In this document: in pieces, positions 2,559 to 23,658 of the stretch
Layout of the letters: each line of letters starts with the position of its first letter
How positions within the stretch are numbered: position 1 is the stretch's first letter
DNA from: a virus
IMG/VR virus record: IMGVR_UViG_3300045999_006933
Coordinates: 1-33,032 of that record
Direction: 5' to 3' (one strand)
DNA length: 33,032 bases
The notes under the pieces: generated by a model
Databases searched by the model: none
The model's input: only the letters and a program-made list of their open reading frames with translations
What the model was told of the DNA's origin: nothing
Program-made: the position numbers and the translations under genes

Positions 2559-2795
2559 TTATTTAGGCGAAATTGCTGGTTTTGAGATAGAATTTTTTGG
2601 TGATGACGATCCCCTGGTTGCTTCTTCGATTGCTTTTGCCTTTTCTATAAATGCCTGTTCTGCTTCATTTATGTAAAATCTTCGTAAAAATACAGGCATA
2701 TTATATACGTCTTCCCATGGAAATGAGCCTTTTGTATAAAAAACTAATTGAAAAATCTCTTTATGTATAAGGGGCTTTTGATTAACCCCTAGGCC
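2559..2795 (-). CDS. 51: gp51-like baseplate/tail assembly frame, probably made by frameshift from gp26
   Basis: This 78-codon frame (GLGVNQKPLIHKEIFQLVFY...) ends at TAA 2559-2561. It carries the segment FPWEDVYNMPVFLRRFYINE, which I associate with gp51-type small proteins encoded next to gp26 in T4-like phages; that assignment is from memory. The open frame runs from an upstream stop at 2829-2831 and has no ATG, GTG or TTG before the ATG at 2697-2699, which would discard the first half of this segment. It overlaps the end of the gp26-like gene in the +1 (equivalently -2) frame. The simplest reading is a fusion product made by ribosomal slippage on TTTTTTT at 2796-2802, giving a minor protein of about 352 residues. 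Alternatives are a rare ATT or ATA start, a 46-residue product from 2699, or an indel error in the T run. Position before the tape measure gene fits a tail assembly chaperone role. Confidence 0.6.
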   Translation of the reverse strand, partial: GLGVNQKPLIHKEIFQLVFYTKGSFPWEDVYNMPVFLRRFYINEAEQAFIEKAKAIEEATRGSSSPKNSISKPAISPK

Positions 2796-2802
2796 AAAAA
2801 AA
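2770..2802 (-). other. Candidate programmed frameshift site
   Basis: On the minus strand the gp26-like frame reads TCA TTT TTT TGG CCT, with seven consecutive T (2796-2802). Five nucleotides after the run, AGGGG (2786-2790) can pair with CCCCT (2770-2774) across an 11-nt loop, forming a GC-rich hairpin that spans the gp26 stop codon. Slipping +1 or -2 enters the gp51-like frame at GGC CTA. A -1 slip would hit TAG after two codons. Slippage has not been demonstrated. Confidence 0.5.
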
Positions 2803-3618
2803 TGAGGTCCCCATGGGAATTTCCATGCTTATTGACTCTCCCGTTGCATCTGATAAAAATTCAAATGTTAGATCTATATCAGGCGAAACTTCTTTTATAT
2901 ATTCACGCAACGCCCTAGAATCTAACGAAAACAGTTCATTATCAACAAAATTATCAATATACAACCTTGATGTTTCATCATCAACCGATGTTATAATATG
3001 TTTTAATCTTGTTGTGAATTCACGGTCAATTCCATCACTTTTCTTTAATTTTTTTAATTTTAGATCTTGGGTAATTTGATTTTCGATGCCATGGGTAAGC
3101 AGTCTAAAAGTTATTTTGCGTTTAGAATTTGGTAATGTAAACTCAAACTTATTCTCATTCTCTGGGATTAGATTCCAATCTATTTCTTTATCTTTTATAT
3201 CTTGTAGGTCTATGGTAAGTTGCTGTTTTGTGCCGGGTGAGAATGGATCTTCTACTTCAATTTCGTAATCTTTTCCGTATCCCAAAATTCTAGCCGCAAT
3301 CATTATTGCATTTTTATCACCAACATATATATCATCATATCTAACAGGTGATATTATTAGTGATTGTAATAATTTATCAAGAACAGTTCCCTGTTTAATC
3401 AAATTAGATGATGTTAAAATATCCTCCTCCCTTGCGGTCATATATTTTAAATCAATAAACCCAGATGCAAGGGGATGATCTTTTGGATATAATAATCCCT
3501 TAGATGGCAACGGCACTGTTTCCGTAGGAAAATTATAGCTTTTTACTTCTTCATTTTTATAATTTTGAAGGGCTATTTCTTTTAATTGATCATCTGTTAA
3601 CTGCTGTTGTGTACTCAT
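2782..3618 (-). CDS. 26: gp26-like baseplate hub / tail assembly protein
   Basis: The product is 278 residues. The N-terminus has VPLPSKGLLYPKDHPL near residues 35-50, then MTAREEDILTS and a helical region with YDDIYVGDKNAIMIAARILGYG, ending in MGTSFFWPRG. These features resemble the T4 base plate protein family that includes gp26, which is needed for hub assembly upstream of the tape measure. The ATG at 3618 follows a strong AAAGGAG 6 nt upstream. The gene opens a new transcription unit: a terminator (3669-3696) and a promoter-like motif (3652-3662) separate it from the giant fibre gene. Its 3' end overlaps the gp51-like frame. Whether the protein is a virion component or a chaperone cannot be read from sequence. 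Confidence 0.75.
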   Translation of the reverse strand: MSTQQQLTDDQLKEIALQNYKNEEVKSYNFPTETVPLPSKGLLYPKDHPLASGFIDLKYMTAREEDILTSSNLIKQGTVLDKLLQSLIISPVRYDDIYVGDKNAIMIAARILGYGKDYEIEVEDPFSPGTKQQLTIDLQDIKDKEIDWNLIPENENKFEFTLPNSKRKITFRLLTHGIENQITQDLKLKKLKKSDGIDREFTTRLKHIITSVDDETSRLYIDNFVDNELFSLDSRALREYIKEVSPDIDLTFEFLSDATGESISMEIPMGTSFFWPRG

Positions 3619-3651
3619 AAAAACTCCTTTGTAATAGACTTGTTAATATCA

Positions 3652-3668: not shown

Positions 3669-3696
3669 TAAAAAAAGCCCCTAATTAAAGGGGCTT
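3669..3696 (-). terminator. Rho-independent terminator after the giant fibre gene
   Basis: The minus strand forms AAGCCCC / GGGGCTT (3675-3681 with 3690-3696, plus one more A-T pair) around a six-base AT loop, followed by an uninterrupted T run. It starts 6 nt after the stop codon of the 2828-residue gene. The plus strand has a poorer T tail, so leftward termination is favoured. Confidence 0.85.
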
Positions 3697-3701
3697 ATTT
3701 A

Positions 3702-6700
3702 TTATCGCATTACTACTAACCTATATTCATTTGTTGTTGGTATAGTATTAAATGTTACAGTCATTGTATTCGTGCTATTGATAGACATTGTTGGATATAC
3801 AACAAAATTAGAATTATTACTGTATACCATTGCTATTATATCACGTGTTCCAAGACTGTGTGTTACCGGATATGTCACATTTGATCCATCCCCAAGATTA
3901 GTTGTATATTTTGAGGAAGATAAGTATGTAACTGTTGTGTCAAGCTGTTTTATAGCGTTTACCGCCACCAGATTCACCATTGCTGGTTTAATCATCTTGA
4001 TATCAAAACTACCGGTGGCTGAAACTGACCCCGAATATGATCCGGATGCGCCCATAACGAATAATGATCCACTCACTCCCGATGCGAGTGCTGCTGCCTC
4101 CAGATCTTGTGCTATATACCCGTATGAACTTCCAGAGTGCTTATATGTGCCGTTTGGACTTCCTGACACATAGTTGAACCTACCATCCCACTTAAATTCT
4201 TTTGGTTGGATTTGCCTAATGAAATCCAATCCAAGATTAAATGATCCAGTATCGGCTTTATCTCTTGCATCAGAATACCATATCCAACCAGCAACACCAG
4301 GTACACCCCATGCAACATGTGTAGTCATTTGTTGATTACCAAGTGCAACTTGATTTATAATATTGAATTGGGTTTTAGGTGCGTTTGCTCCAATTATAAC
4401 ATTATTATTGCCCCATGTCTTTACATTAGGTCCGTTTAATTGTTGTCCAGAGTTGACACCTAAAAATACATTTTTATCACCAGCCACAAGTGATGCACCT
4501 GCTTGGAATCCAGCAACAGTATTATTTGATGAATCAGTTTGGACACTTGGTTCAAACCCAGCCCCCGCAACTGGCCCTGGCATTGCTCGTAATGTTGCAT
4601 TTGTTTGTAATAAACTATTTAATGTATTTGTACCAACTGCAGTATTTTTATCCGAGTACTGTATGTTATACAATGAATTTTTTCCGATTGCAACAGTATC
4701 CAGAATTGTATTTCCCTCTAATGTTGCGCTTGCACCTATTTGAACGCTTGCATCAGAACTTCCAGTTCCATTATATTGTACGCGGTATCCAATTGCTACG
4801 TTATCGGTTGCTGCTGGCATTCTTGCTTGTGCGTCTGATCCAATTGTAACAACTTGTGCGATGTCCTCGTAATTACTACCGGATATAGTTACACTTGATC
4901 CTTCAAAGAATTTATAATCAGAGCACCATGTAATTGGCAACGGATTACATCCACATCCCGATGAAGTTTTAAGCGATACTTTATAATGAGAATCAGTAAA
5001 ACTCCATGTATTACCCCCATCGGTTGTATATGCGATTTGGCCGTATGTCATTCCAATTATAGCTTTTTGTTTATCTATAATTGTTATTTCACCGAATGGC
5101 AATGGGCGAATTTCACCTAATGCATTTCTGCCACCGCCACACATAACTGGTAACGTTATGGTTTTGTGTTGCCAAGATGAACCACCATCGTTTGTAATCG
5201 CAATTAGCATTTCTTGACCAGTTGGTCTTTCTGGTTGTGGTGGTGTTCCAAAATTATTTGGGTATACACCAATGGCAATTCCAAATGAATCATCGAAGAA
5301 ATCGATATCCGTAAATGTTATGTAGACTTGGTTATCATTTGCTCTAGTTGCAAAATATGCAGGTGTAGATACACCTGCTATAGAGACGGTATCCCAAAAA
5401 TCTCCACCAAATTTTGTTTGTGAGCTAGCCCCGAGAAGCTTAGTAAATAATCCAGTTCCTCCATTCCATTTGTAAATTGAACCGTATGTTCCAACTAAGT
5501 ATGCAGTATCACCTGCAGCATTCATCCATACTCCATTAAATGAAACGTTAGATCCAGAGTTTGTAGTATCCACTGTTCTAATAGACCACGTAGATCCGCC
5601 ATTGGTTGATATATACGCTTTGGTTCCACCAACAGCCATTCCAGATGTTGCAGTAGGAAAATGCATATCAGTAATTTCAGGATCGTATCTTCCATTATCA
5701 ATTATTTGATTAAATGATAAAGTATCAACTACATCACCAGCAAATTCATTGTTAGATGTTGCTTTATATATTGCTGATTTATAATTTTGCCCTTCCCGTG
5801 TACCCGGTATTCCCTTAACCAATAAATACATTGTGTTTGTATCTGGTACATTTAATTTCATGCTTTTACCGCCAATTGAGCGTATAGGACCTATGTTTTT
5901 TAATAATCCTGGTTTTTGTACCACATTCCATTCTATTGGATCTTTTCCATTAGTTGAAGACAGATTATTTGTTCTTACAATTAATGGATATCGAGTTCCA
6001 TTATTAGTTGTTTGCTCAATTGCAGCATACGCAGTTTGTCTAGACGCTATTGCAATTGAAACTGGTTTTGATTTACTATAATTTTCATCCCATTTTTTTC
6101 CTGCGTTTGTTAATTCATCATATATAAAATATGTATCACCACGCTTTTTAACATAATTACTATTAGACCATTTTTTAGATGAAAAATCACTAAAATCGTT
6201 TCTTGATAAAATATTGCTATTGAAAAATCCAACAGCCAATACACCAACTGGGTCTGAATTAAGCACTATGTCTGGTGATGCAGCGTTTGATCCAGATTGG
6301 GTACCACGTAAAGCATTTGCACCAATTGCAACTATATCATAACCAGTCTGATTTTGAAGCGTTCTAGAACCAACCGCGACTGTTTGTGTAAATTTCCAAT
6401 CATTGTTTTGTGAACTACTATAATATGTTCCAATTTTAGTTTTAAATGCTTGACCAACGTAATTACCTATGAAAACCGAATCTGATAAATCATTGCCATG
6501 ATCCGAAACCGCTCTGTAACCAATTGCAATTGTATCAGCAGAACCAGATGCATTCAAAAATGCATAGTTTCCGATTGCTATATTTCTACTGCCAATTGAT
6601 TGAAATACTCTTTGTGGTTCGATATTACCAGATTGAGATATTTGTGATGCACGTACTGAACCTAAGTTGTTTAATAGTGACTTATATCCAATTGCAACGT

Positions 6701-9700
6701 TATCATTTCCACCGCGTAATGAAACAGACGCGGTTGGTGCAAACTTTGTTAAATCACCATTTAAACCAAGTGCCCAAACGCCAACAGACGTATTTCTATG
6801 ATTATGGCCCAAATGCTGGCTATAAAATCCTATTGCTGTGTTATTTGAGCTTTCGTTTGAATCATATAAAGTTGCATATCCAACGGATGTATTAAATGTT
6901 GAATTTATAGCTGTATTTTGTGAATACGCACCAATTGCAATTTGACCATAATTTGCTGCTAATTTTGGCTGTGGTTCATTTAAATCTTCCGGGCCTGTTA
7001 TTAAATCGCCCATGTAAATTGCTTTAAACACATCTTCATATATTGAATCCAATGAAGTTTTACCTTCATTAATATCAACATTTTTAAGAGCGTTTGCACC
7101 AATTGCAACCATACGTGATGCATTTTCAAATGAACTCAATGCATACGAACCAACTGCAACATTTTCGTCTACTATTTCAGACGGTATTGTTTGTTGCTCA
7201 ACTGGGTTTTCGGTTAACGCATTTTTTAACGATAAATCATAATTTGGATTTGTAGATGGTACGTCATTTGAATAACGCGTTGTTGTTAACCCTTTTATTT
7301 CAAATCTAGGAAAACTTGCATTTGATCCAGTTGGGCTAGGTGAAGCAAATAATGCGAACTGCGTATTTGCAGCTGCATCATACCATGTTTTGCCACCATC
7401 TACTGACTTTAAAATACCATTTAAGTGTCTAGCAAGTATAGTACTGTTATCTATTAAATCAACTTCCTGTATACTACCATAATTACTGCCAGTTGTTGTC
7501 CCAGTAAAACTACCAGATCTCCATGTTAATCCAGTGTTGCTACTGTAAATAATACTACCTGATTCACCAACAGCAACAATTTTAGATCCTACCGCTTGCA
7601 CATCTAACAAATTATTTGTTGTTAATCCAGTAGAAACTAGATTCCAATTTAATCCTCTATTAGAAGTTCTATAAACCGATCCGCTTGTACCAACCGCAAT
7701 CCATGTACTTGCATTAACATAATCTATAGCATTTAGAGTATGTGATCCACTATAACTTGATGTTTCCCACGCTACACTACTTCCACTTTGCAACTTCCAT
7801 ATTTTAGACCCAACTATAAATCCAAAATTTTCCGAATACATTTTAAATGATTTTAAAGTATTACCCGAAGTATTTAAAATGCTACCAGTTCCAAATCCAT
7901 TCCCACCATTTGTTGATTTTAAGAAAGTACCAGATGTATTATCTAAAGCATAAACAGTTGAAGGCGTAAGAACACTAAGATTATCAACAGCATATGTCGA
8001 TGATGAATATACGGCTCTATAAGAATCTGTTTTTTTATTGTATTTTGATATAATTGTTTTTAAATCAGATGATCCACTCAAATCATTGGATAACACAAAA
8101 ACTTCAGATGCGTTTGCTTTATATATTTTTGTAGCATATAATGAACCAGAATAGCTTCCAGACGCAATTGATGCAGTATCGATAGAAAGGAATTGAGTAG
8201 TCCATGTATCACCAACATCATTTGATACTAAAATACTACCTGCTTCATTTATACCGATAATACTTGATGTTGCAAATATATTTAGTGCAGTATTTACTAC
8301 ACTAGTTTTTATATCACTTCTGTTTGAGCTAAGTGCTTTGTATCCAATCGCAACATTATTTTTTGCATTTCGTATCATGTCCATGGCACCGAATCCGGCA
8401 GCAGTATCAGCTTTACTGTATTCGGCTTTACCCAATGTACCAACACCTAACGCAGCACCGTATGTTAATTTATTTCTTAACCTTGCTACTTCTATATTTG
8501 TATTCTGTCCAAATATTCCCTTACCAAGACCAATATTGTTTGATGAGTTTGGATAATATATTGGATTTGACCCGGACGGTGGGTTACATTTATATGCAAA
8601 ATTTTCAAAATTATAATATGATGCACTTATAAATGGAACACCAAAGCATCCTTTAATTTCTGGGTCTTCTGTATCTTCCCCTCCACCACCATCATCAATT
8701 ATAGAAGTTTCTTCCGTTAACGTTATTTTTTCGGCAAATGCCACAGTATATAATGTAGATGGTTGTCCAGTTAAATTTCTAAGAGAATCAAATTCAAATT
8801 CCAAATCAACATAATCGTGATTTGAATCCACCAAAGTCCAAGACGAGCCAGAATCAGTGCTTTTTAATACAAAATGTTCACCGGATGTAGAATTTGTTGC
8901 GCTATAATGCCCAACTGCCAATCCAAATTTTCCATTTCCAGAAAACTTAATTTCGTTTACTATACCTGTATATGCTAAGTCATGAGCCTTTTCCCAGTTT
9001 GAGCCACTATCGGTTGTTATCCATATTTCACTTCCCATTGCAATTACACCAACAGCCTCAGTCAAGAAATGCATCGCAGATACTTCTTTATTTGAAGTTG
9101 AATCATATGGTGTAGTTAAACGAGTCCAACTTAATCCAGAATCTGTTGTTTTAAACAAACCAGCATATTTGTTAGATCCGTATGAACCTGCAACAAATCC
9201 CTTTCTTACTGTTATAAATTGTAAATGCCCTCGGGTGTCACCCGCTGCAAAATCTGTTATTCCAATAGGATTCCAGTTTATACCACCATCTCCTGTTCTA
9301 TATATTAATTCTACAGCAGGTGATCCATTTACAGAACCCCGAACCGTAACAGATCCTGTTAAATCATTAACAAAAAAGATATCTTGTGGCTGATATGATA
9401 ATCGATCATTTGAAGTAGGTAATTGAGTCCATCCAGGTGATGTTTTCCATGTATTTCCACTGTCATTTGAAACAAACACGTATCCATCGGCACTCAAATC
9501 TTTTGGGTATGCAGTTACATATATTAAGTATTCACCTGATATAGACTGAGTTGGAATAAAAACGGAATTGAAATTAAACCCTTCTAGATCAGGTCCTCCC
9601 ACATAAGACCAGTTTGCACCACCGTCCTTTGTTATAGAAATTAATGAAAAAGATTTTGGATCATTCTGGTCTGTTATATCTGATACAGCAACACCAAAGT

Positions 9701-12188
9701 TTGAATCATAAAATCTAATTTTTCGTATCCCATCTGAATTACCTGGATATTTTAAATCTTGTCTAAAAAGATTTGAATTTACTTTTTTAAACGTACTTGC
9801 TTGATCATCTGATGCATATACTGGAAATGTGTCTTTATTGCTATCTATTAAATACTTACCTTCACTTATACTTGTAAATGTAAAATCACCACCACCGTTT
9901 ATACCTAAATCCGGTGGTTCTTGTTCTTTTAATCGTGTGATTGCGTTTTCCCAAGTAATACCGCCATTGTTAGATGTTAACAAAATAGGTTCGGAACCAA
10001 GACTAGTTGATCCACCACGTGTAGCTGCAAATGTAGTGCCGCCTGCTATCCAGTATGGATAGCCTTCTTCTCCTGCTATTGCACACAATGTCCATGAATT
10101 ATCAGTCCACGGTCCCATTACCGGGTACAATATTGAAAGGTTTGTTGCGCGTATTCCAAAATCACCACCAAGTAAAAATAAAATTGTTCCTTGGCTAAGT
10201 GTTCTAGCAGAATCCAATTCAAATATTTCTGAGAATTTATTTGTTGTACGGTCAATAATAAATGTAGTTACAGTAGAAAATCCATTTGTAGTAATATAGA
10301 ATGCACTACCTAATTGGTTAATCGCATATATGTTTGATTCATCATACGGAATTACCTTTTTTATTCCTTCTGAATACGTATATAATTGTGTCCATGATGT
10401 GCCGCCGTTAGTGGTTTTAAATAAGACATTATTTAGACTAGTTGTATCTTCTATTAACGCAAATACAGTTGAGTTATTTAACGCAACAACCTGTAATATT
10501 TTATGGGAAGAGCCAGTTATAGCCGATGCTACCTCAGACCAAGTAACTGGATCAGTTGAATATGTGGTTTCATTTGTAATAGATCCTGTTTCTTTATATA
10601 TTATTTTTCCGGTATCGGTTCCAGCAAAAATTTTTCCTGTTTTTGCTGTGTGTATTGTAACTAAATTTTGTGAAGTTAATGAAGATGTTTCTTCGACAAA
10701 TCTAAAACTCTTATTAAAATCATAGACATATTTAGTGCCTCTAATTATTTTTGCATTTGCAGTTATAATATAAATTTCACGATAGCTATGTGCTATAAGT
10801 TTTGTTGGTATATCATTTACAACTGTTGTGAAATCACGTTTTACACTTAATCTATACGTACCAAATGAAAATTCATATAACCCGTTTGTTGTTAATATAT
10901 AAGCGTATGCAAGTACATCCTTTTCGGTTGGGTTTTCATCTGTTACCAATTGTAAATCAACTGTATTCTCAGGGATATCAAATTCTATCCAATCTATAGT
11001 TTTTGGATCATCTTCACCCAAGATATTTGGATTTCTAGCTACAAACAGTTTATTTTTAGAAATTGCCGCATAATAATTTACAAGCCCCGCTCGTATTGAT
11101 TTCACATTTTCTATTGGTAAGAAATCCGAATATATACCAGATGATATATATTCCCACGTAAGACCAGAATTACTCGATTTTAATATTCGTGTATGATCGT
11201 CTCCAACTAAAAATACATCAGTAGTGTTTGGTAATAATATGTCATTAAATGCAGGTATTCTGTTATCTCTAGTTAAAACAACGAGTGGACCACTTGCATC
11301 TTCAATTAAAACAGGATTCCATGTATTATTATTACCAGCAAACGATGATTTTTTAATTGCCCCATCTGTTCCAACGGCATATACAACGTTTGAATTTCCA
11401 GTTACAAATTTAATTCTATTTACACATGTTCCCTTTGCGCCAATTGATCCAACATATGTCCATGTCAGTGCACCATCGGTAGATTTATAAAGTCTGCCAT
11501 AATGTGTACCTATAATAAATGTATTGGGGTCATCTGGTTTTACAGCGATAGCGGTTATACAGTCACCTGCAACATCATTTGGAGCAGTTCCCCATAAAAC
11601 AAATTCATTTGATCCAACTTCTTTTTTAAATATTTTTGGAAATACCTGTGCTTCATTACCACTCATAGTTGATATAGCAAGGCCATACCTAACAAATTTT
11701 CTCCAAAATATTGTATCACTTCCAGCACCCGGTGATGCACCAACAACATAAGCTTCATCTTCGTTTGTCCAAAGCATATCAAAACCAACAATTTGATTTG
11801 AAAGAGAATATGCATTTACAAAATTCAATCCACCATCGGTTGAAATATCTATTTTAGTACCGCCGCGTACTGCGCTTCCATCTCTATCAGTTTTTAATGT
11901 GTATATTGTTTTTGAATTTACATGTTGAACCCTGAATCCCATAACAGACGCTTTTGGTACAGTTGCTTGATCAAAGGAAATCCCAGAATCCTGCGATGTT
12001 ACTACGTAATCAAATTGACCATGTGCTACAACTGATCTATTTTTTGCTATTGTTTTAGCATCCGATGCATCGGTACCTGCAATAAATGAGCTTGGTATTG
12101 TATCTGTTGCAAATGTACCAACGATTTTAAATGATCCTGTATCTGCTGCTAATCTACCTTGTACTCGGGAATTTCCAAATATTTTCAT
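3702..12188 (-). CDS. Giant fibre/adhesin: beta-propeller and YadA-head-like repeats with S74 chaperone
   Basis: At 2828 residues this is the largest gene here. Block 1 (about 1-1155) has some 12 Asp-box-like motifs (STDGALTW, TTDSGLSW, SNDSGNTW), as in BNR/Ycf48-type propellers. An acidic Gly-rich linker (DDGGGGEDTEDPE, near 1165) and a Cys-containing segment lead into NVAIGYKAL-type repeats like YadA heads (near 1276). More Asp boxes follow at about 1330-1600, a long YadA-like block at 1680-1990, three Asp boxes at 2200-2395, a second Cys-rich segment (CGCNPLPITWC, near 2413) and a last YadA-like block at 2460-2625. An S74 intramolecular chaperone-like domain begins at SDARDK (2639). About 70 beta-rich residues, with THSLGTRDIIAMVY, end the protein. 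It is likely a trimeric tail or baseplate fibre that binds host surface glycans; the ligand is unknown. It is transcribed as a single gene between two terminators, and its Shine-Dalgarno is modest (AGAGAAC). Confidence 0.8.
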   Translation of the reverse strand: MKIFGNSRVQGRLAADTGSFKIVGTFATDTIPSSFIAGTDASDAKTIAKNRSVVAHGQFDYVVTSQDSGISFDQATVPKASVMGFRVQHVNSKTIYTLKTDRDGSAVRGGTKIDISTDGGLNFVNAYSLSNQIVGFDMLWTNEDEAYVVGASPGAGSDTIFWRKFVRYGLAISTMSGNEAQVFPKIFKKEVGSNEFVLWGTAPNDVAGDCITAIAVKPDDPNTFIIGTHYGRLYKSTDGALTWTYVGSIGAKGTCVNRIKFVTGNSNVVYAVGTDGAIKKSSFAGNNNTWNPVLIEDASGPLVVLTRDNRIPAFNDILLPNTTDVFLVGDDHTRILKSSNSGLTWEYISSGIYSDFLPIENVKSIRAGLVNYYAAISKNKLFVARNPNILGEDDPKTIDWIEFDIPENTVDLQLVTDENPTEKDVLAYAYILTTNGLYEFSFGTYRLSVKRDFTTVVNDIPTKLIAHSYREIYIITANAKIIRGTKYVYDFNKSFRFVEETSSLTSQNLVTIHTAKTGKIFAGTDTGKIIYKETGSITNETTYSTDPVTWSEVASAITGSSHKILQVVALNNSTVFALIEDTTSLNNVLFKTTNGGTSWTQLYTYSEGIKKVIPYDESNIYAINQLGSAFYITTNGFSTVTTFIIDRTTNKFSEIFELDSARTLSQGTILFLLGGDFGIRATNLSILYPVMGPWTDNSWTLCAIAGEEGYPYWIAGGTTFAATRGGSTSLGSEPILLTSNNGGITWENAITRLKEQEPPDLGINGGGDFTFTSISEGKYLIDSNKDTFPVYASDDQASTFKKVNSNLFRQDLKYPGNSDGIRKIRFYDSNFGVAVSDITDQNDPKSFSLISITKDGGANWSYVGGPDLEGFNFNSVFIPTQSISGEYLIYVTAYPKDLSADGYVFVSNDSGNTWKTSPGWTQLPTSNDRLSYQPQDIFFVNDLTGSVTVRGSVNGSPAVELIYRTGDGGINWNPIGITDFAAGDTRGHLQFITVRKGFVAGSYGSNKYAGLFKTTDSGLSWTRLTTPYDSTSNKEVSAMHFLTEAVGVIAMGSEIWITTDSGSNWEKAHDLAYTGIVNEIKFSGNGKFGLAVGHYSATNSTSGEHFVLKSTDSGSSWTLVDSNHDYVDLEFEFDSLRNLTGQPSTLYTVAFAEKITLTEETSIIDDGGGGEDTEDPEIKGCFGVPFISASYYNFENFAYKCNPPSGSNPIYYPNSSNNIGLGKGIFGQNTNIEVARLRNKLTYGAALGVGTLGKAEYSKADTAAGFGAMDMIRNAKNNVAIGYKALSSNRSDIKTSVVNTALNIFATSSIIGINEAGSILVSNDVGDTWTTQFLSIDTASIASGSYSGSLYATKIYKANASEVFVLSNDLSGSSDLKTIISKYNKKTDSYRAVYSSSTYAVDNLSVLTPSTVYALDNTSGTFLKSTNGGNGFGTGSILNTSGNTLKSFKMYSENFGFIVGSKIWKLQSGSSVAWETSSYSGSHTLNAIDYVNASTWIAVGTSGSVYRTSNRGLNWNLVSTGLTTNNLLDVQAVGSKIVAVGESGSIIYSSNTGLTWRSGSFTGTTTGSNYGSIQEVDLIDNSTILARHLNGILKSVDGGKTWYDAAANTQFALFASPSPTGSNASFPRFEIKGLTTTRYSNDVPSTNPNYDLSLKNALTENPVEQQTIPSEIVDENVAVGSYALSSFENASRMVAIGANALKNVDINEGKTSLDSIYEDVFKAIYMGDLITGPEDLNEPQPKLAANYGQIAIGAYSQNTAINSTFNTSVGYATLYDSNESSNNTAIGFYSQHLGHNHRNTSVGVWALGLNGDLTKFAPTASVSLRGGNDNVAIGYKSLLNNLGSVRASQISQSGNIEPQRVFQSIGSRNIAIGNYAFLNASGSADTIAIGYRAVSDHGNDLSDSVFIGNYVGQAFKTKIGTYYSSSQNNDWKFTQTVAVGSRTLQNQTGYDIVAIGANALRGTQSGSNAASPDIVLNSDPVGVLAVGFFNSNILSRNDFSDFSSKKWSNSNYVKKRGDTYFIYDELTNAGKKWDENYSKSKPVSIAIASRQTAYAAIEQTTNNGTRYPLIVRTNNLSSTNGKDPIEWNVVQKPGLLKNIGPIRSIGGKSMKLNVPDTNTMYLLVKGIPGTREGQNYKSAIYKATSNNEFAGDVVDTLSFNQIIDNGRYDPEITDMHFPTATSGMAVGGTKAYISTNGGSTWSIRTVDTTNSGSNVSFNGVWMNAAGDTAYLVGTYGSIYKWNGGTGLFTKLLGASSQTKFGGDFWDTVSIAGVSTPAYFATRANDNQVYITFTDIDFFDDSFGIAIGVYPNNFGTPPQPERPTGQEMLIAITNDGGSSWQHKTITLPVMCGGGRNALGEIRPLPFGEITIIDKQKAIIGMTYGQIAYTTDGGNTWSFTDSHYKVSLKTSSGCGCNPLPITWCSDYKFFEGSSVTISGSNYEDIAQVVTIGSDAQARMPAATDNVAIGYRVQYNGTGSSDASVQIGASATLEGNTILDTVAIGKNSLYNIQYSDKNTAVGTNTLNSLLQTNATLRAMPGPVAGAGFEPSVQTDSSNNTVAGFQAGASLVAGDKNVFLGVNSGQQLNGPNVKTWGNNNVIIGANAPKTQFNIINQVALGNQQMTTHVAWGVPGVAGWIWYSDARDKADTGSFNLGLDFIRQIQPKEFKWDGRFNYVSGSPNGTYKHSGSSYGYIAQDLEAAALASGVSGSLFVMGASGSYSGSVSATGSFDIKMIKPAMVNLVAVNAIKQLDTTVTYLSSSKYTTNLGDGSNVTYPVTHSLGTRDIIAMVYSNNSNFVVYPTMSINSTNTMTVTFNTIPTTNEYRLVVMR

Positions 12189-12309: not shown

Positions 12310-12798
12310 TTAGAATTGGAGGATTGCGTAATCGTAAGAAAGTGTTAATGTTATTTCAACTGCACTTTCGGTACCCCAGTCAAAATCTCCAAAGTTTGTT
12401 TCCTTGATGAATGCACCTTTAATTGTCCATTCTTCAATCTTATCACCAACAGGACCAAGTGTATTAAATGTAATATCCTTCTTATAAAAATCTGCATATC
12501 CATCTCTACCAGTTACAGATTCATGGGAAAGGCGTATCCATTCAAGTGTTGCTTGTGCGGCAGATGGCACGATTGGATCATATAATTTAATTTGAAGATC
12601 CTGCCATTCGCCCTTTCCTTTTAATTGACGCTTCACATTTATATGTTCCATTGTAACCTTACCGAAGTTGATGTTTGGTCTTTGTGCTGCCTTTATAAGA
12701 TAGGCAGGAACACCTTCGATATACATAATAAATCTGTTTAAGACCTTTGGTTCAAAGGCAGTAAACATAATTTCGGTAGGACTTAAAAGATCGGCCAT
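12310..12798 (-). CDS. 19: Tail tube protein (gp19-like)
   Basis: The 162-residue product has the size and pattern of T4 gp19-type tail tube monomers: NRFIMYIEGVPAYLIKAAQRP at residues 21-41, the charged segment WQDLQIKLYDPIVPSAAQ, and a beta-rich C-terminus ending VEITLTLSYDYAILQF. Hexameric rings of this protein stack into the inner conduit for DNA ejection, inside the sheath and around the tape measure. The gene directly follows the tail sheath gene, as in T4 (18 then 19). The ATG has a strong AAGGAG 7 nt upstream, and its own promoter-like motif lies 32 nt before the start, which suits a product needed in many copies. A strong terminator follows. Confidence 0.93.
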   Translation of the reverse strand: MADLLSPTEIMFTAFEPKVLNRFIMYIEGVPAYLIKAAQRPNINFGKVTMEHINVKRQLKGKGEWQDLQIKLYDPIVPSAAQATLEWIRLSHESVTGRDGYADFYKKDITFNTLGPVGDKIEEWTIKGAFIKETNFGDFDWGTESAVEITLTLSYDYAILQF

Positions 12799-12852: not shown

Positions 12853-15285
12853 TTATTCTGGAAACTCTGCGCCAGTTGGCTGAACGTTGAAATCTAATAC
12901 GATAAATTCTGCTGTTCTAGTTGGCTGTAGATATAATTGACCATACATAATATTTCTGTCTATAACGTCTGGTGTATTATTTGTTTCGTCCATAATCACT
13001 CTGAATGCAAATAATCCTTGGCGTTGTTGAATTGATTCGAGATATGGTGTTACTATATTCAGGAATCTATTGCGTGTTGCCGCAGTATTCTGTTCAAATA
13101 CCAAGAATCTAGTTGATGCCGCTATAAATTTCTTTGCTGCAATCAATAAACGTCTAACATTAATTCTATCTAATGCAGATGGTCTTGCTTGAAGAGTTTT
13201 CTGTCCCCATACACAAACGCCTTGTCCAGGGAATGATGCAATTGGATTGACTCGGTTTTCATAAAGTGAATCACGTTCTGTTTGAGTTAATCTAGACTTA
13301 GATTGTATAACTTCAGTTAATCCACCACGATTTAATCCTGCTGGTGCAAACCATTCTGCAGCTACTCTATCGCTGAATGATATAACACCTGGTAGTACCA
13401 CAGAAGGAGGTACCCAGACTGGTTTATTTCTATCAGTATCTACAATTTTTACCCATGGATAGTAAGTAGCAGTATAACTTGAATCAAAACCGGCTACAGT
13501 ACTTACTATGTCGGTCACGGAGGCATCATATCCTGCGGCATCCATAACATAGAAAGTATCACCGCGCTCTTCTGCCATATCCTTTGCATACGTTGTTATC
13601 GATGAATGCAATGAATGAAGAACACCCGGTGTTATTATCATATTAATATCGAATTCATCTTTGTTTGATATTGCATCAAGTGCTTTTTTATATGCAGTAT
13701 ACCCAGCTGCAGATGTTGATGATATATCAAATCCTTGTGTATTTCCAGCTGTAATGTATTGCCCAGTTCTCTTTTGAAGATTTGGTTTTTGACCGTCAAA
13801 TCCACCTTGGAACGGAACAATGAATTTTCTAGTATCAATTGAAGTATCAGATGTTAATCCAATTGATCCAGTATATGGAGCCGCTGCTGTTGGATATGCT
13901 GCTCCCAGCGGTTGATTATAATCAGAAAGTACAAAATCTATATTGTTTCCGAATGTAAGTTGTGCTGATACTGGCAGTGGTGCTAAATAGTTTACATTGT
14001 CTGTATTTTGGAAATCGAAATCAAACCCCCAATATTTTCTCTTATTATATGTACCACCGATTGTCTGTCCAACTACATACGTTGCTGCTTCTGGTTGTGT
14101 GAACGAGCTAGGAATTGGGCTATATAATGCTCTAAATCCAAAAGGTACCAGTGAAGGGTCGGTTGCTCCATTCTCAACTGCATCGTCTAATTTTACTCTT
14201 ATGTAATTTGATTTATTTGGATAATCACCCAGTACACTTACTTTTCCATTTGAATCTACGGAGTAATATCTATCCCCAATTACTCTCGATATGAACAATG
14301 GAGAATTAGGATCAAGATTACATGTAAATTGCTCAATGATGGATGGTCTTAAATCATCATCTTCATGTGAAAATGGAGCATTTTTGATATCACTTTGATC
14401 TACATATCGAACAATAACATCAAACTGCCCGTACTGTGAACCAGCGATAGTACCAGCAGGACGAATGTTTGTTATACCTACTTTTACATCCATGTTAGTT
14501 GCTGTACCGTCAGAAAGATGTACAAACTTAAATAAGTTTACAAGCTGTCCACCAACCTTTTGTGAAGTGATCCACGGAGTTTCGGCAGGTAGATATGGAT
14601 TTTGGAAATCCCAGTTATCGTTGGTTGTTCCCAATTGCATTGTCAATGATGTAAATCCACTTGCAATTAATTCTTCTGCTTTATTTGAGAATAATGAATA
14701 ATTGTAAACAGGGTTTGTTCCTATTGGACTGTATCCAAAAAGTTTTCCTATAAAGTCAGCACTATTTGGATCAATTGAGGCAGAGTATCCAGTTCCATTT
14801 TTGTTTGTTGCGTTTGTAAATGTAGATGTATCGGTTACAAATGATCCCGATATTGTTAATACGAAAGAGCCACTTGGTGCTCCAGCTGTAAACGATGAAG
14901 ACTGAAACAGATTTGTTGCTCCATCTGTTGTTACAACATATGTTGGGTGTAGCATAGAAATTAAATAAGACTCACTACCAGAATTTGCAACAATTGCAAT
15001 TGGACGTGTCAATTCATATCCACCTGTTCCAAGAACTCTTACAACAGTTGCACTTGGTGCATTATTTAGATATGATTTTGCTGTATATGGTAAGTATGTA
15101 TTTTCAGAGAAGCCACCAAACTTGGTAACAAATTCTCTGAAAGACCCTACTGTTGTTGGAACAAACGCAGGACCCTTTATTGTTGGTCCTACTAATGCAG
15201 CACCAATTTGTGCTACTGCTTGCGGGAGAAATGACGAATCAATTTCTCTTGAAAATACACCAGGACTTACAATTCTTTCTGCCAC
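12853..15285 (-). CDS. 18: Contractile tail sheath protein (gp18-like)
   Basis: The 810-residue protein begins MAERIVSPGVFSREIDSSFL and continues with AALVGPTIKGPAFVPT, the typical N-terminus of T4-type sheath proteins. The C-terminal part (ASFPGQGVCVWGQKTLQ, RINVRRLLIAAKKFIAAS, PTRTAEFIVLDFNVQPTG) matches the conserved sheath core that forms the contractile helix around the tube. T4 gp18 is 659 residues; the extra length lies in the variable middle region exposed on the tail surface. The start is GTG at 15283-15285, six bases after GGAG. An out-of-frame ATG overlaps it by two bases and stops after a few codons. The gene sits between the small coiled-coil gene and the tail tube gene. Confidence 0.95.
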   Translation of the reverse strand: MAERIVSPGVFSREIDSSFLPQAVAQIGAALVGPTIKGPAFVPTTVGSFREFVTKFGGFSENTYLPYTAKSYLNNAPSATVVRVLGTGGYELTRPIAIVANSGSESYLISMLHPTYVVTTDGATNLFQSSSFTAGAPSGSFVLTISGSFVTDTSTFTNATNKNGTGYSASIDPNSADFIGKLFGYSPIGTNPVYNYSLFSNKAEELIASGFTSLTMQLGTTNDNWDFQNPYLPAETPWITSQKVGGQLVNLFKFVHLSDGTATNMDVKVGITNIRPAGTIAGSQYGQFDVIVRYVDQSDIKNAPFSHEDDDLRPSIIEQFTCNLDPNSPLFISRVIGDRYYSVDSNGKVSVLGDYPNKSNYIRVKLDDAVENGATDPSLVPFGFRALYSPIPSSFTQPEAATYVVGQTIGGTYNKRKYWGFDFDFQNTDNVNYLAPLPVSAQLTFGNNIDFVLSDYNQPLGAAYPTAAAPYTGSIGLTSDTSIDTRKFIVPFQGGFDGQKPNLQKRTGQYITAGNTQGFDISSTSAAGYTAYKKALDAISNKDEFDINMIITPGVLHSLHSSITTYAKDMAEERGDTFYVMDAAGYDASVTDIVSTVAGFDSSYTATYYPWVKIVDTDRNKPVWVPPSVVLPGVISFSDRVAAEWFAPAGLNRGGLTEVIQSKSRLTQTERDSLYENRVNPIASFPGQGVCVWGQKTLQARPSALDRINVRRLLIAAKKFIAASTRFLVFEQNTAATRNRFLNIVTPYLESIQQRQGLFAFRVIMDETNNTPDVIDRNIMYGQLYLQPTRTAEFIVLDFNVQPTGAEFPE

Positions 15286-19115: not shown

Positions 19116-22100
19116 TTAATATTTTGATTTCAATTCTAATACCTGTTTTTCCAACTCTTGTATTTTTTCCAATAAATGTTTAATTATTACACTATGATAC
19201 GGGACTATCTGTTCATAATTTACTGTCAACTGACTTCCAGCTGGGCTTGTAAATCCATCATTATCTATATGCTGTTCCAATGATTCATTCGGTATTATGC
19301 CAACTAAATTATCAAATCCTGCTTTTGAAACATTTTGTGCAGAATAACCAATTTTTATTCCGCTATCTTCATTGTATTTCCACGTAAATTTTATCGGTTG
19401 AGTATTTAAAATAAATTTTTTTGATTCATCTATTGATACAAAATCAATGATATTTTTTAATCTTTCATCTGAATATGCATTAAATTCTGAGGCGGCTATT
19501 CGTTGATTTGCAACTAATGAATATGCAGCAATTGCAGATGATGTACCAGTCAATCCTGATGTATTTAGGTATCCATATGAACCTAAATTATAATTAGCAC
19601 TGCCATTTATAGTTACAAATCCTGTTTTAGATGATGTTCCTATTAAAACTCCACCAGTTGCTCCCGTTTGTCCATTTATAATAAGATTGCCAGATCCAGA
19701 AACATTTAGCCATAAATTAGCATCGGGTATAGTAGAATGGAAATGTCCATTTCCATCATCAAATATAACAATACTTCCATTGTTAATAGAAAGCCCACCG
19801 CCTGTATTTTTTAACCCCGATAAATCATTAGCGGTTGTTGCTGGTAATGCAAGAGAACCGGAATCATTAAGAGTGAGTATTTTAACATTATACGCATGAT
19901 TGATAATTTCAAAACTTCCACTTTCATTTAAGCGGAATGTTTTAGATGGCGTTACTGCACTCCCTGTTGTATTTGTTACACGCATAAAATCAAAATACTT
20001 GTTTCCACCGCGTGTTCCGTAACCATAAAGATCTAATCCAACTGAGTCTACTAACGGCAATCTCGTTAATCCAAAACTTCCAGAAACTGATTGAAATCCC
20101 GATATTATATTAGACCCAGTTATATTAAATGAACCAGATATATCAAATGATCCAGTTAATGTTAAAGAAGATCCGGTTAAGATAAGATTTCCACCGGTAA
20201 TTACTTCGCCATCAATTCCGGTTGACGTTAAAACTCTACCCCGAAATGGATTAATTACAACAATAGATCGACCCGATGTACCGCTAGTCCCAGATGTTCC
20301 AGATGTTCCGGATAAACCGCTAGTCCCAGATGTTCCAGATGTTCCGGATAAACCGCTAGTCCCAGATGTTCCAGATGTTCCGGATAAACCGCTAGTCCCA
20401 GATGTTCCAGATATACCGCTAGTTCCAGATGTTCCAGATATACCGCTAGTTCCAGATGTTCCAGATATACCGCTAGTTCCAGATGTTCCAGATATACCGC
20501 TAGTTCCAGATGTTCCAGATATACCGCTAGTTCCAGATATACCGCTAGTTCCAGATGTTCCAGATGTTCCAGATATACCGCTAGTCCCAGATGTTCCAGA
20601 TGTTCCAGATATACCGCTAGTCCCAGATGTACCAGACGATCCAGTTGTAAATGGTATTCCGTTTATAATAAGACTACCCGATATATTTAAACTTCCGGTT
20701 ATATTAGAACTACCAGATATAAACATAGATCCAGATAAAAGTATTTGATCTACAGATGGGAATGTTACAGAAGTACCCGTGACTGCAAGTGATCCAGTTA
20801 TATCAGTATTTCCGTTAATACTTAACGTTGAATTTGAATATATTAAATTTGATGAAGCCGTTGCTGCATTTATAGAACCGTCACTCAATATTATCCGGTT
20901 AGCCCCTGGATTACTTATTGTATTAAATCCAGTTCCAGATGTACCAGTGGTTCCGGACGTGCCACGTGCACCAGATGTACCAGATGTTCCAGTTGCACCA
21001 GATGTACCAGATGTTCCAGTTGCACCAGATGTACCAGATGTTCCAGTTGCACCAGATGTACCAGATGTTCCAGATGTTCCAGATGTTCCAGATATACCAC
21101 TAGTTCCCGGTGTTCCCGTTGCTCCAGAAGTACCAGAAGTACCAGGGATTCCAGTTGCTCCAGAAGTACCAGAAGTACCAGATGTACCAGGGGTACCAGG
21201 AGTTCCAGTTGCTCCAGATGTTCCTGATGTTCCTGTTTCACCAGAAGTTCCAGATGTTCCTGTTCCACCAGCTGTGCTAGATGTTCCAGAGGTACCTGAC
21301 ACGCCCATTGATCCGGATGGACCAGTTGATAATCTAGTTATATTTGCCGTTGATCCAGCTCTAACTCTAACTAACTGTCCACTTGAATTTAAAAACGCAT
21401 TTACATAACTACCACTTGGCATGTATCTATATATTTTCAATGGAACAGGTGCAGGTGCTACTGTATTTGAACCGTAAATAATATAACTCCCAGTCCATAC
21501 TTGTACATTATTTTGTAATATACTGAATACGATTGTATCTTGGACTGTCTGTGGGTCAACTATTAAATTAAAATTTAAGTCATAATATCCGTCATACGAT
21601 GACATAAATCTTCCACTAGAGCTATAAAATTCCATCCCTAATGTAGGAATATTTTCAACCATCATTGAACCAGAAAATACATCAAAGAAACTAGACGAAT
21701 ACCCAGAATCGTTTGTTCTAGTTAAACTTAACATTTGATCGGTACTTACGCCTAATGAATTCTGTATTACTGTAATTCCACCTGAAGTGGATGATGTCCC
21801 CGATGTTCCTGATATACCAGAAGTACCGGGATTTCCAGTTGCACCAGATGTTCCTGCTGTTCCAGTTGCACCAGATGTTCCTGCTGTTCCAGTTGCACCA
21901 GATGTTCCTGCTGTTCCAGTTGCACCAGATGTTCCTGCTGTTCCAGTTGCACCAGATGTTCCTGCTGTTCCAGTTGCACCAGATGTCCCAGATGTTCCAG
22001 TTGCACCAGACGTTCCTGCTGTTCCAGTTGCACCAGATGTTCCTGCTGTTCCAGTTGCACCAGATGTTCCTGCTGTTCCAGTTGCACCAGATGTTCCTGC

Positions 22101-22547
22101 TGTTCCAGTTGCACCAGATGTTCCAGATGTTCCAGTTGCACCAGATGTTCCAGATGTTCCAGTTGCACCAGATGTTCCCGCTGTTCCAGTTGCACCAGAT
22201 GTTCCCGCTGTTCCAGTTGCACCAGATGTGCCAGCAGTTCCAGGTAAACCTGTTTCCCCAGATGTACCAGATGTTCCTGAATTTCCAGTTGCCCCTGATG
22301 TTCCGGATGTACCTGGGCCGCCTGAAGTACCAGAAGTACCGGGTCCGCCTGAAGTACCGGCTGTCCCAGTTGCACCAGACGTTCCAGATGTCCCAGATGT
22401 TCCGTTTACTATAGTTTCCGATACTATACTGGGTACCCCAACTTGTATAGTTGTTGGAGCAAGCGCTGTTGTAACTGAAATCTGTGCTGAATCACTAGGA
22501 GTTATTGATAGATTTGAATTACCCGTATTTACTATTATGTTTGACAT
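19116..22547 (-). CDS. Collagen-like tail fibre with C-terminal S74 chaperone domain
   Basis: The 1143-residue protein has a 48-residue head (MSNIIVNTGNSNLSITPSDS...). A first collagen-like Gly-X-Y block follows at about 49-254, mostly GATGTAGTS, then a globular beta-rich domain at about 255-412 that resembles a C1q/TNF-type jelly roll (my impression only). A second GTS/GAT block lies at about 413-538, a short beta region comes next, a third GTSGTSGIS block lies at about 634-760, and then a beta-rich stalk. The C-terminal 118 residues start at SDERLKN (residue 1026), the signature of S74 intramolecular chaperones that drive fibre trimerisation and then self-cleave. They end in a coiled coil (LLEKIQELEKQVLELKSK). 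It is probably a trimeric side fibre or head decoration. Its ATG overlaps the previous stop in TAATG, with no evident Shine-Dalgarno. Confidence 0.85.
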   Translation of the reverse strand: MSNIIVNTGNSNLSITPSDSAQISVTTALAPTTIQVGVPSIVSETIVNGTSGTSGTSGATGTAGTSGGPGTSGTSGGPGTSGTSGATGNSGTSGTSGETGLPGTAGTSGATGTAGTSGATGTAGTSGATGTSGTSGATGTSGTSGATGTAGTSGATGTAGTSGATGTAGTSGATGTAGTSGATGTSGTSGATGTAGTSGATGTAGTSGATGTAGTSGATGTAGTSGATGTAGTSGATGNPGTSGISGTSGTSSTSGGITVIQNSLGVSTDQMLSLTRTNDSGYSSSFFDVFSGSMMVENIPTLGMEFYSSSGRFMSSYDGYYDLNFNLIVDPQTVQDTIVFSILQNNVQVWTGSYIIYGSNTVAPAPVPLKIYRYMPSGSYVNAFLNSSGQLVRVRAGSTANITRLSTGPSGSMGVSGTSGTSSTAGGTGTSGTSGETGTSGTSGATGTPGTPGTSGTSGTSGATGIPGTSGTSGATGTPGTSGISGTSGTSGTSGTSGATGTSGTSGATGTSGTSGATGTSGTSGARGTSGTTGTSGTGFNTISNPGANRIILSDGSINAATASSNLIYSNSTLSINGNTDITGSLAVTGTSVTFPSVDQILLSGSMFISGSSNITGSLNISGSLIINGIPFTTGSSGTSGTSGISGTSGTSGTSGISGTSGTSGTSGISGTSGISGTSGTSGISGTSGTSGISGTSGTSGISGTSGTSGISGTSGTSGLSGTSGTSGTSGLSGTSGTSGTSGLSGTSGTSGTSGTSGRSIVVINPFRGRVLTSTGIDGEVITGGNLILTGSSLTLTGSFDISGSFNITGSNIISGFQSVSGSFGLTRLPLVDSVGLDLYGYGTRGGNKYFDFMRVTNTTGSAVTPSKTFRLNESGSFEIINHAYNVKILTLNDSGSLALPATTANDLSGLKNTGGGLSINNGSIVIFDDGNGHFHSTIPDANLWLNVSGSGNLIINGQTGATGGVLIGTSSKTGFVTINGSANYNLGSYGYLNTSGLTGTSSAIAAYSLVANQRIAASEFNAYSDERLKNIIDFVSIDESKKFILNTQPIKFTWKYNEDSGIKIGYSAQNVSKAGFDNLVGIIPNESLEQHIDNDGFTSPAGSQLTVNYEQIVPYHSVIIKHLLEKIQELEKQVLELKSKY
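20270..20646 (-). repeat. Collagen-like repeat block 3 of the fibre gene
   Basis: Tandem units of 27 bp (encoding GTSGTSGIS) and 36 bp (encoding GLSGTSGTSGTS) are nearly perfect at DNA level. Every unit length is a multiple of three, so copy-number changes stay in frame. Confidence 0.9.
20934..21308 (-). repeat. Collagen-like repeat block 2 of the fibre gene
   Basis: Gly-X-Y coding repeats of mixed 9- and 18-bp units (GTSGAT, GTPGTP, GETGTSGTSG) with more sequence divergence than the other blocks. It is the only block with several Pro residues. Confidence 0.85.
21786..22403 (-). repeat. Collagen-like repeat block 1 of the fibre gene
   Basis: A long tandem array dominated by a 27-bp unit encoding GATGTAGTS, roughly 15 copies between about 21837 and 22220, with degenerate edges (GGPGTSGTS, GNPGTSGIS). 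Units are almost identical in DNA, which indicates recent expansion by slippage or recombination. Confidence 0.9.
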
Positions 22548-22923: not shown

Positions 22924-23658
22924 TTATTTCGTTGTGTTTTCTTCAAAATATGACAATATTTCTTCAACAATTGGATGTCTGTGATTTTGTTTTAATTCAC
23001 GAAATCCAATTCCTTGAATTTTATCTTTCATATTAAATAAATATGGAAATCCGCTATCTTTTTTATTTTTTAAATCAGTTTGAGTTGTATCACCACAAAT
23101 AATCATTTTTGAATGCATACCCAACCTAGATAAAATCATTTCCATTTGTGATTTTGTAATATTCTGTGCTTCATCCACAATAACACATGAGTTTACAAAT
23201 GTTCTACCTCGCATAAAACTTATAGGGGCAATTTCTAATTTATCTTCATTTATTAATTTTTCTATTTTATCTTTTCCTGCAAGCATATACATATTTGCAT
23301 GAATGGGAGCAACCCATGGATTCATTTTTTCTTCCATTGTCCCTGGTAAAAATCCAATATCTTCATTAGATACAGTTGGCCGTGTGATAATTATCTTATC
23401 GATTTCCCTATAAAAAAGATATTCTAAGGCGATTTGACACGCTAATAAAGTTTTACCTGATCCTGCTTTACCAGTTAATACTGAAATTGCATTTGTTAAT
23501 ATTTCAGCTTTTGCTTGCTTTTGTTCTTCATTTAATGATAGCCCAAATTTAATTTTATTTTTTATCTGTTTTCTCCCCTGTTTGATTCCATAATTTTTTT
23601 CAAAATCATCATCGTTAATTTCAAATGTTTCTTCATTTTCCGCACTGTAGTTTATCAT
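22924..23658 (-). CDS. phoH: PhoH-family ATPase
   Basis: The 244-residue protein has a full P-loop core: Walker A GKAGSGKT at 63-70, a Walker B-type CVIVDEAQN at 158-166, the family segment ITRPTVSNEDIGFLPGTMEE at 91-110, and ICGDTTQTDL followed by FRELKQNHRHPIVEEIL near the end. These are the hallmarks of PhoH-like NTPases, related to helicase/nuclease-type P-loop proteins; their physiological role in phages is unsettled. All ATPase motifs look intact. It sits between the capsid terminator and the fibre genes, with its own promoter-like motif 34 nt upstream. It is an unusual non-structural gene inside the virion cluster. The first 40 residues are charged and probably disordered. Confidence 0.93.
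   Translation of the reverse strand: MINYSAENEETFEINDDDFEKNYGIKQGRKQIKNKIKFGLSLNEEQKQAKAEILTNAISVLTGKAGSGKTLLACQIALEYLFYREIDKIIITRPTVSNEDIGFLPGTMEEKMNPWVAPIHANMYMLAGKDKIEKLINEDKLEIAPISFMRGRTFVNSCVIVDEAQNITKSQMEMILSRLGMHSKMIICGDTTQTDLKNKKDSGFPYLFNMKDKIQGIGFRELKQNHRHPIVEEILSYFEENTTK

Follow-up and report, generated by a model that had tools for sequence, protein, structure and literature searches.

Results

The window analysed here is a 33-kb IMG/VR fragment of viral DNA (IMGVR_UViG_3300045999_006933, all 33,032 nucleotides), and our subject is a pair of overlapping frames on its minus strand, a gp26-like gene and an extension frame that lacks a start codon. With a probability of roughly 0.8, judging from sequence comparison, the two frames belong to a single gene, which encodes a tail assembly chaperone (TAC) pair, TAC-N and TAC-NC, made by +1 ribosomal frameshifting. 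The gp26-like gene (2782-3618, -; phrog_150, E value 7.6e-11) encodes 278 amino acids and would give the short chaperone TAC-N, the 'G' form. Its Shine-Dalgarno sequence AAGGAG (3624-3629, -) is the sole clear ribosome entry site for the gene and the extension together. The protein ends in ...MGTSFFWPRG*, encoded on the minus strand by ATG GGG ACC TCA TTT TTT TGG CCT AGG GGT TAA.

Over this end runs a stop-to-stop frame of 89 codons (2559-2828, -) in the +1, equivalently -2, register relative to the gp26-like frame. It does not follow the canonical -1 arrangement (X XXY YYZ). As the first-pass annotation of the sequence had stated, no ATG, GTG or TTG precedes the conserved part, in a scan that ended 33 nt beyond the gp26 stop. 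The +1-frame extension itself occupies 2562-2795 (-), with its stop codon at 2559-2561. It was delimited by profile matches and the motif FFGL...VYNMP..R, and would be TAC-C, the 'T' part, homologous to the T4 gp51 C-terminus. The junction is the shift site TTT TTT TGG (2794-2802, -), assigned from conservation in 176 sequences and a re-pairing table. It includes the seven T's (2796-2802), and 5 nt 3' of it lies a hairpin AGGGGTT/AGCCCCT (about 2770-2790, -; -9.2 kcal/mol, z about -2.0) that is also present in the nearest relative, L008. T run and hairpin had both been described before and were found again on the minus strand. An Rfam search of the window gave no match.

Searching with the gp26-like protein by tblastn retrieved Microcystis phage Mel-JY01, Flavobacterium phage immuto, RM378, LIS04, GXN1 and uncultured phages; the majority of the alignments reach the FF at the end. 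Among these phages and the IMG/VR relatives collected first, reading continues in the +1 and not in the -1 frame. Four scans of viral contigs yielded further loci, and an extension profile assigned the frame in 274 of 275. After removal of duplicates, the +1 class comprises 176 and the -1 class 85 non-redundant sequences. Overlap, +1 frame relation, Phe-Phe site and protein motif are shared by the window and 175 other sequences, which answers the question raised in the first-pass annotation, whether the start-less frame and the T run are conserved among homologues. The overlap is also kept, with the same site picture, in 107 representatives below 60% identity.

This same state in 176 non-redundant sequences shows that the overlap is not a sequencing error. 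Seven T's are error-prone and six would give a single open reading frame (ORF), so an assembly or sequencing indel that split one ORF had to be weighed. Bodies of 216-288 amino acids occur across independent assemblies and isolates, none of the 176 is fused, and we regard such an artefact as having next to no chance of being correct.

A conserved slippery sequence, YTT then T, is present in the overlap. Codon 1 of the site is TTT in 169 sequences, TTC in 6 and CTT in 1; codon 2 is TTT in 169, CTT in 6 and CTA in 1, and thus YTT in 175/176. The base after codon 2 is T in 173/176, and YTT is followed by T in 172/176. TTC is never found as codon 2 (0/176), compared with 334 of the 1466 Phe codons (23%) that these genes contain. 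All other gp26 Phe codons of Listeria phage LIS04 and Streptococcus phage GXN1 are TTC and codon 2 is TTT; SP-15 uses mostly TTC, yet its codon 2 is TTT as well. The third codon is TGG in 140 sequences, TAC in 29, TAT in 3 and another codon in 4. These counts come from related sequences, not independent events, and for this reason no P value is attached to them.

Re-pairing of the P-site tRNA from YUU to UUU or UUC in a +1 step fits all sites except CTA-T (L003) and TTT-TTT-A (LIS04); in L003 the preceding TTT-C works, in LIS04 the first TTT. The first-pass annotation had left the slip as +1 or -2. A frameshift as such is supported, and the variant sites favour the +1 direction. A -2 ribosomal slip as known for the tail genes of phage Mu (PMC5009743) would reach the same reading frame and give the same fusion with one more Phe, and at TTT-TTT-T a move of the P-site tRNA by two bases backwards gives pairing as good as the +1 step. 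The six TTC-TTT-Y sequences, GXN1 among them, argue against it, because they allow perfect +1 re-pairing of UUU to UUY and no good -2 re-pairing. Moreover, codon 1 is free (TTC, CTT) and codon 2 together with the next base is constrained, which fits +1. A -2 slip is therefore unlikely. We dropped CTT-T sites as a means of excluding it, as CUU can re-pair to UUC with first-position wobble. The two directions predict different junctions: +1 slippage would yield VSFLGLTPEYR in immuto (TTT CTT TGG) and VNFFGLSNEYR in Mel-JY01, and the less probable -2 slippage VSFLFGLTPEYR and VNFFFGLSNEYR, respectively.

The T run could also act at the level of transcription, with RNA polymerase slipping so that some mRNAs are one base shorter or two bases longer and hold a fused ORF. 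Most members indeed have seven T's. In several lineages, however, the run is broken or short (TTTCTTTGG, TTCTTTTGG, TTTCTATTC, TTCTTTCGT) and the frame relation is kept, and the -1 class uses canonical ribosomal signals at the same codons. Polymerase slippage is thus very improbable.

The +1 frame is under purifying selection, with changes concentrated on third positions. In the first 150 nt past the gp26 stop, window and L008 differ at 4/4/23 sites at +1-frame codon positions 1/2/3, and over 160 pairs the differences are 1143/607/2979. Start codons are not conserved in it: scanned to 24 nt past the site, 69/176 sequences lack ATG, GTG and TTG, and 131/176 lack ATG. A start codon with a Shine-Dalgarno-like 4-mer occurs in 25/176. 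A clear gp51 start with a Shine-Dalgarno sequence in relatives, which had been named as speaking for a separate gene, is thus seen in a minority at most. A separate small protein, begun at a non-standard start or by re-initiation after the gp26 stop, would agree with the small genes that annotators call there in Mel-JY01 and P-SSM2. Against this stand the sequences without any start, the rarity of Shine-Dalgarno-like starts, the T4 gp51 protein, in which the extension is fused to the body, and the conservation of the extension, which begins (FFGL) exactly at the shift site. We give this explanation marginally less credit than polymerase slippage.

Existing annotations treat the extension unevenly. 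It is a separate gene from TTG in Mel-JY01 and 'gp51' of 57 aa in P-SSM2; the immuto annotation misses it, with a 36-aa ORF in its place. The regions concerned are L001:3812-4048, L002:3839-3949 and L034:3208-3381.

The hairpin had been noted next to the T run. It is present in the window and L008 and is not general in the +1 class, where downstream RNA has a mean z of -0.68 against -0.38 for a control stretch, with only 21% below -2. As a required stimulator of the +1 class it was rejected, downstream z being near control. A prfB-like Shine-Dalgarno sequence 3 nt upstream was not seen by eye at the listed +1 sites.

The -1 class comprises cyanophages, KVP40 and jumbo phages, in which the two Phe codons of the site belong to the heptamer T TTT TTC. 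In P-SSM2, S-SM2, S-SRM01, KVP40, Atu_ph07 and CBB the gene ends at this heptamer in FF, in some cases followed by a few further residues, and the -1 frame leads into a small gene annotated gp51 or hypothetical. The heptamer, with TTC as codon 2, is found in 83/85 members, and the 50 nt downstream have a mean z of -2.57 against -0.19 for the control. Direction, codon choice and RNA structure go together: TTC as codon 2 and strong downstream structure mark the -1 class and not the +1 class. Strong structure within 50 nt 3' of T TTT TTC in L034, L035, L041 and L122-L201 makes a good target for covariation analysis.

When 76 bodies were placed in a tree, those of the +1 class grouped together strongly, and two -1 sequences, L040 and L098, fell inside the +1 part; deep branches are long and uncertain. 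L040 (LR756511.1, a 595-kb uncultured phage) groups with the +1 phages SP-15, LIS04 and GXN1. Its long run of T's closes with T TTT TTC, and the -1 frame holds its extension.

T4 gp26 and gp51 both match PF12322 and phrog_150 and thus form one family. The window gp26-like protein alone gave no match to PF12322; its relatives do match. This family and the tape measure gene directly downstream agree with the earlier proposal that gp26 and gp51 may be the T4-type TACs. A profile of the bodies aligns with cyanophage gp26 (E value 1e-15) up to the FF. Along the 282 profile positions, T4 gp26 stops at 235 and gp51 runs to 280, and the gp51 C-terminus can be aligned with the -1 extensions of cyanophages at the cost of one internal gap (NYSLNSISKMIPAER with KYSLTELENMMPWER, E value 2e-6). 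These extensions in turn match window-type extensions (E value 1e-7). The window extension is accordingly, by profile comparison through the cyanophages, a probable homologue of the T4 gp51 C-terminus. As bodies and extensions match via cyanophages, T4 gp26 would correspond to the short and gp51 to the long form, and gp51 appears to be a whole gp26 paralogue with an added C-terminal extension. The label 'gp51-like' given earlier to the window frame thus holds for the last ~46 residues of T4 gp51 and not for the rest. A PHROGs search with the extension gave weak matches only (phrog_32580, 'tail assembly chaperone', in 4/20 members, E value 0.11 or worse), and a PDB sequence search with the fused profile gave none.

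Body and extension were modelled apart with AlphaFold2. The body model (mean pLDDT 89.6) resembles T4-type hub proteins in BFVD, with E values down to 1e-19. In the PDB, HK97 TAC 2ob9 is the only match with a probability above 0.4, YqbN (3klu) following further down, and likeness to the known TAC fold is suggestive only. The extension model has three helices (18-31, 38-42, 46-72) and its fold search returned no significant match.

The putative chaperone gene lies between the tail tube and sheath genes and the tape measure gene, as TAC pairs do. The tape measure gene (1-2505, -) is incomplete, running off the window end, and was assigned by a pairwise match of its product to the annotated tape measure protein of immuto (E value 5e-8). 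In the N-terminal half of this product a coiled-coil-like unit (KELKFNSKVLEEQQKNQ...) is repeated several times almost unchanged. Tube (12310-12798) and sheath (12853-15285) genes are upstream of the chaperone gene; in Mel-JY01, immuto, SP-15 and LIS04 the tube gene directly precedes it. Together with portal, gp23-type head protein and T4-type terminase genes, they mark the window as DNA of a T4-like myovirus.

Further genes were noted in passing. The ORF at 3702-12188 (-, 2828 aa) matches tail spike proteins in its C-terminal part (phrog_4636, E value 6e-28), and a terminator-like hairpin (~3671-3696) separates it from the gp26-like gene. At 19116-22547 (-) a 1143-aa protein has nine collagen-repeat stretches (PF01391, E value 8.5e-57), and a PhoH-like gene (22924-23658, -; phrog_170, E value 7e-67) is situated within the structural gene block.

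Discussion

From the conserved overlap, frame and site we infer that ribosomes slip here, that the slip is +1 and that the products act as chaperones. Most ribosomes would read 2782-3618 to the stop and make the short TAC-N of 278 aa. In some, with peptidyl-tRNA on the second UUU of UUU-UUU-UGG and UGG waiting in the A site, the tRNA would slip one base forward, from TTT (2797-2799) to TTT (2796-2798), so that GGC (2793-2795) is the next codon. Reading on in the +1 frame would produce the long TAC-NC of 352 aa, ...GTSFF-GLGVNQ.... If lambda G/GT is a guide, the N-terminal part common to both forms may coat the neighbouring tape measure protein and the extension may recruit tail-tube subunits.

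Several points weigh against this proposal. The +1 class showed no conserved stimulator, neither a Shine-Dalgarno-like stretch nor a 3' structure. At TTT-TTT-T, the site of the window included, sequence cannot separate +1 from -2. The match of the body to a solved chaperone is weak (2ob9, E value 0.88, probability 0.51), and the extension profile hits T4 gp51 directly at an E value of 0.16, the significant link running only through the cyanophages. Finally, L098, inside the +1 clade, is without the motif, and its extension lies in the -1 frame; the region (L098:1501-2470, IMGVR_UViG_3300020442_002272) reads AAT TTC TTC TGG CCT TCC CGA TAG. It is one contig, and its state could reflect either a reversal of direction or a mistake in the assembly.

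It seems more probable than not that the same two Phe codons have given rise to three solutions: a +1 clade with YTT then T and no conserved stimulator, a -1 clade with T TTT TTC and RNA structure, and duplication in T4. Direction would have flipped within clades (L040, L098), with the synonymous codon for the second Phe reporting it. A T4-type pair made by frameshifting, as first proposed, is thus upheld for the class of the window and not for T4 itself, where the two genes lie on opposite strands.

Gp26 and gp51 of T4-like phages were reportedly identified as TACs by Vladimirov, Gautam and Davidson (2022, Virology 566:9), which removed part of the puzzle of T4 as an exception. Long-tailed phages 'except T4' were described as conserving G/GT-type frameshifts, which are variously of the -1, -2 and +1 kind (PMC5009743), and T4 gp26 and gp51 were listed as hub assembly chaperones, gp51 being essential and of unknown function (PMC3004832). 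Two papers cite Vladimirov et al. 2022: according to PMC10885494, a short and a fused long TAC gene may both be present in T4-like phages, and PMC12846349 cites poly-T -1 signals for T4-like TACs. TAC identity and the two-gene solution of T4 are known already, since they are cited there. In the searchable literature, mostly without subscription papers such as Vladimirov et al. 2022, we found neither a report of +1 frameshifting in T4-like chaperones nor a large +1 class with a codon signature.

Our analysis contributes a large and ecologically common class that would make the long form by +1 frameshifting. The series of +1, -1 and duplication within one gene is a natural one, and exchanges of codon 2 within it offer a way to ask what determines the direction of frameshifting. 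Annotation is corrected for Mel-JY01, immuto, SP-15, RM378 and many metagenomic phages, in which the extension is missing or a separate gene, and clean +1 training cases, lacking in prediction tools (PMC10885494), become available.

Compared with T4-like gp26/gp51 TACs, the family (PF12322/phrog_150) and the occurrence of short and long forms are shared. T4, however, uses two genes, and the cited T4-like signals are poly-T -1, whereas the window class is +1. Short and long products are likewise common to lambda G/GT, HK97 gp13-14 and P2 E/E', but these use -1 and have no detectable sequence relation to the window; to HK97 gp13 there is the weak fold resemblance given above. The -2 tail gene of phage Mu has the same resulting frame relation, and variant sites in the window class disallow -2 re-pairing. 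For the tail chaperone of the haloarchaeal myovirus HSTV-2, +1 is very likely (PMC5009743); both systems would thus use +1, with the HSTV-2 host belonging to a different domain. In prfB (RF2, CUU-U), peptidyl-tRNA on YUU slips to UUU as proposed here, and six +1 members have CTT-T. The A-site codon is a stop in prfB and UGG or UAC/UAU in the +1 class, which thus appears to share the P-site step of prfB without its conserved upstream Shine-Dalgarno sequence.
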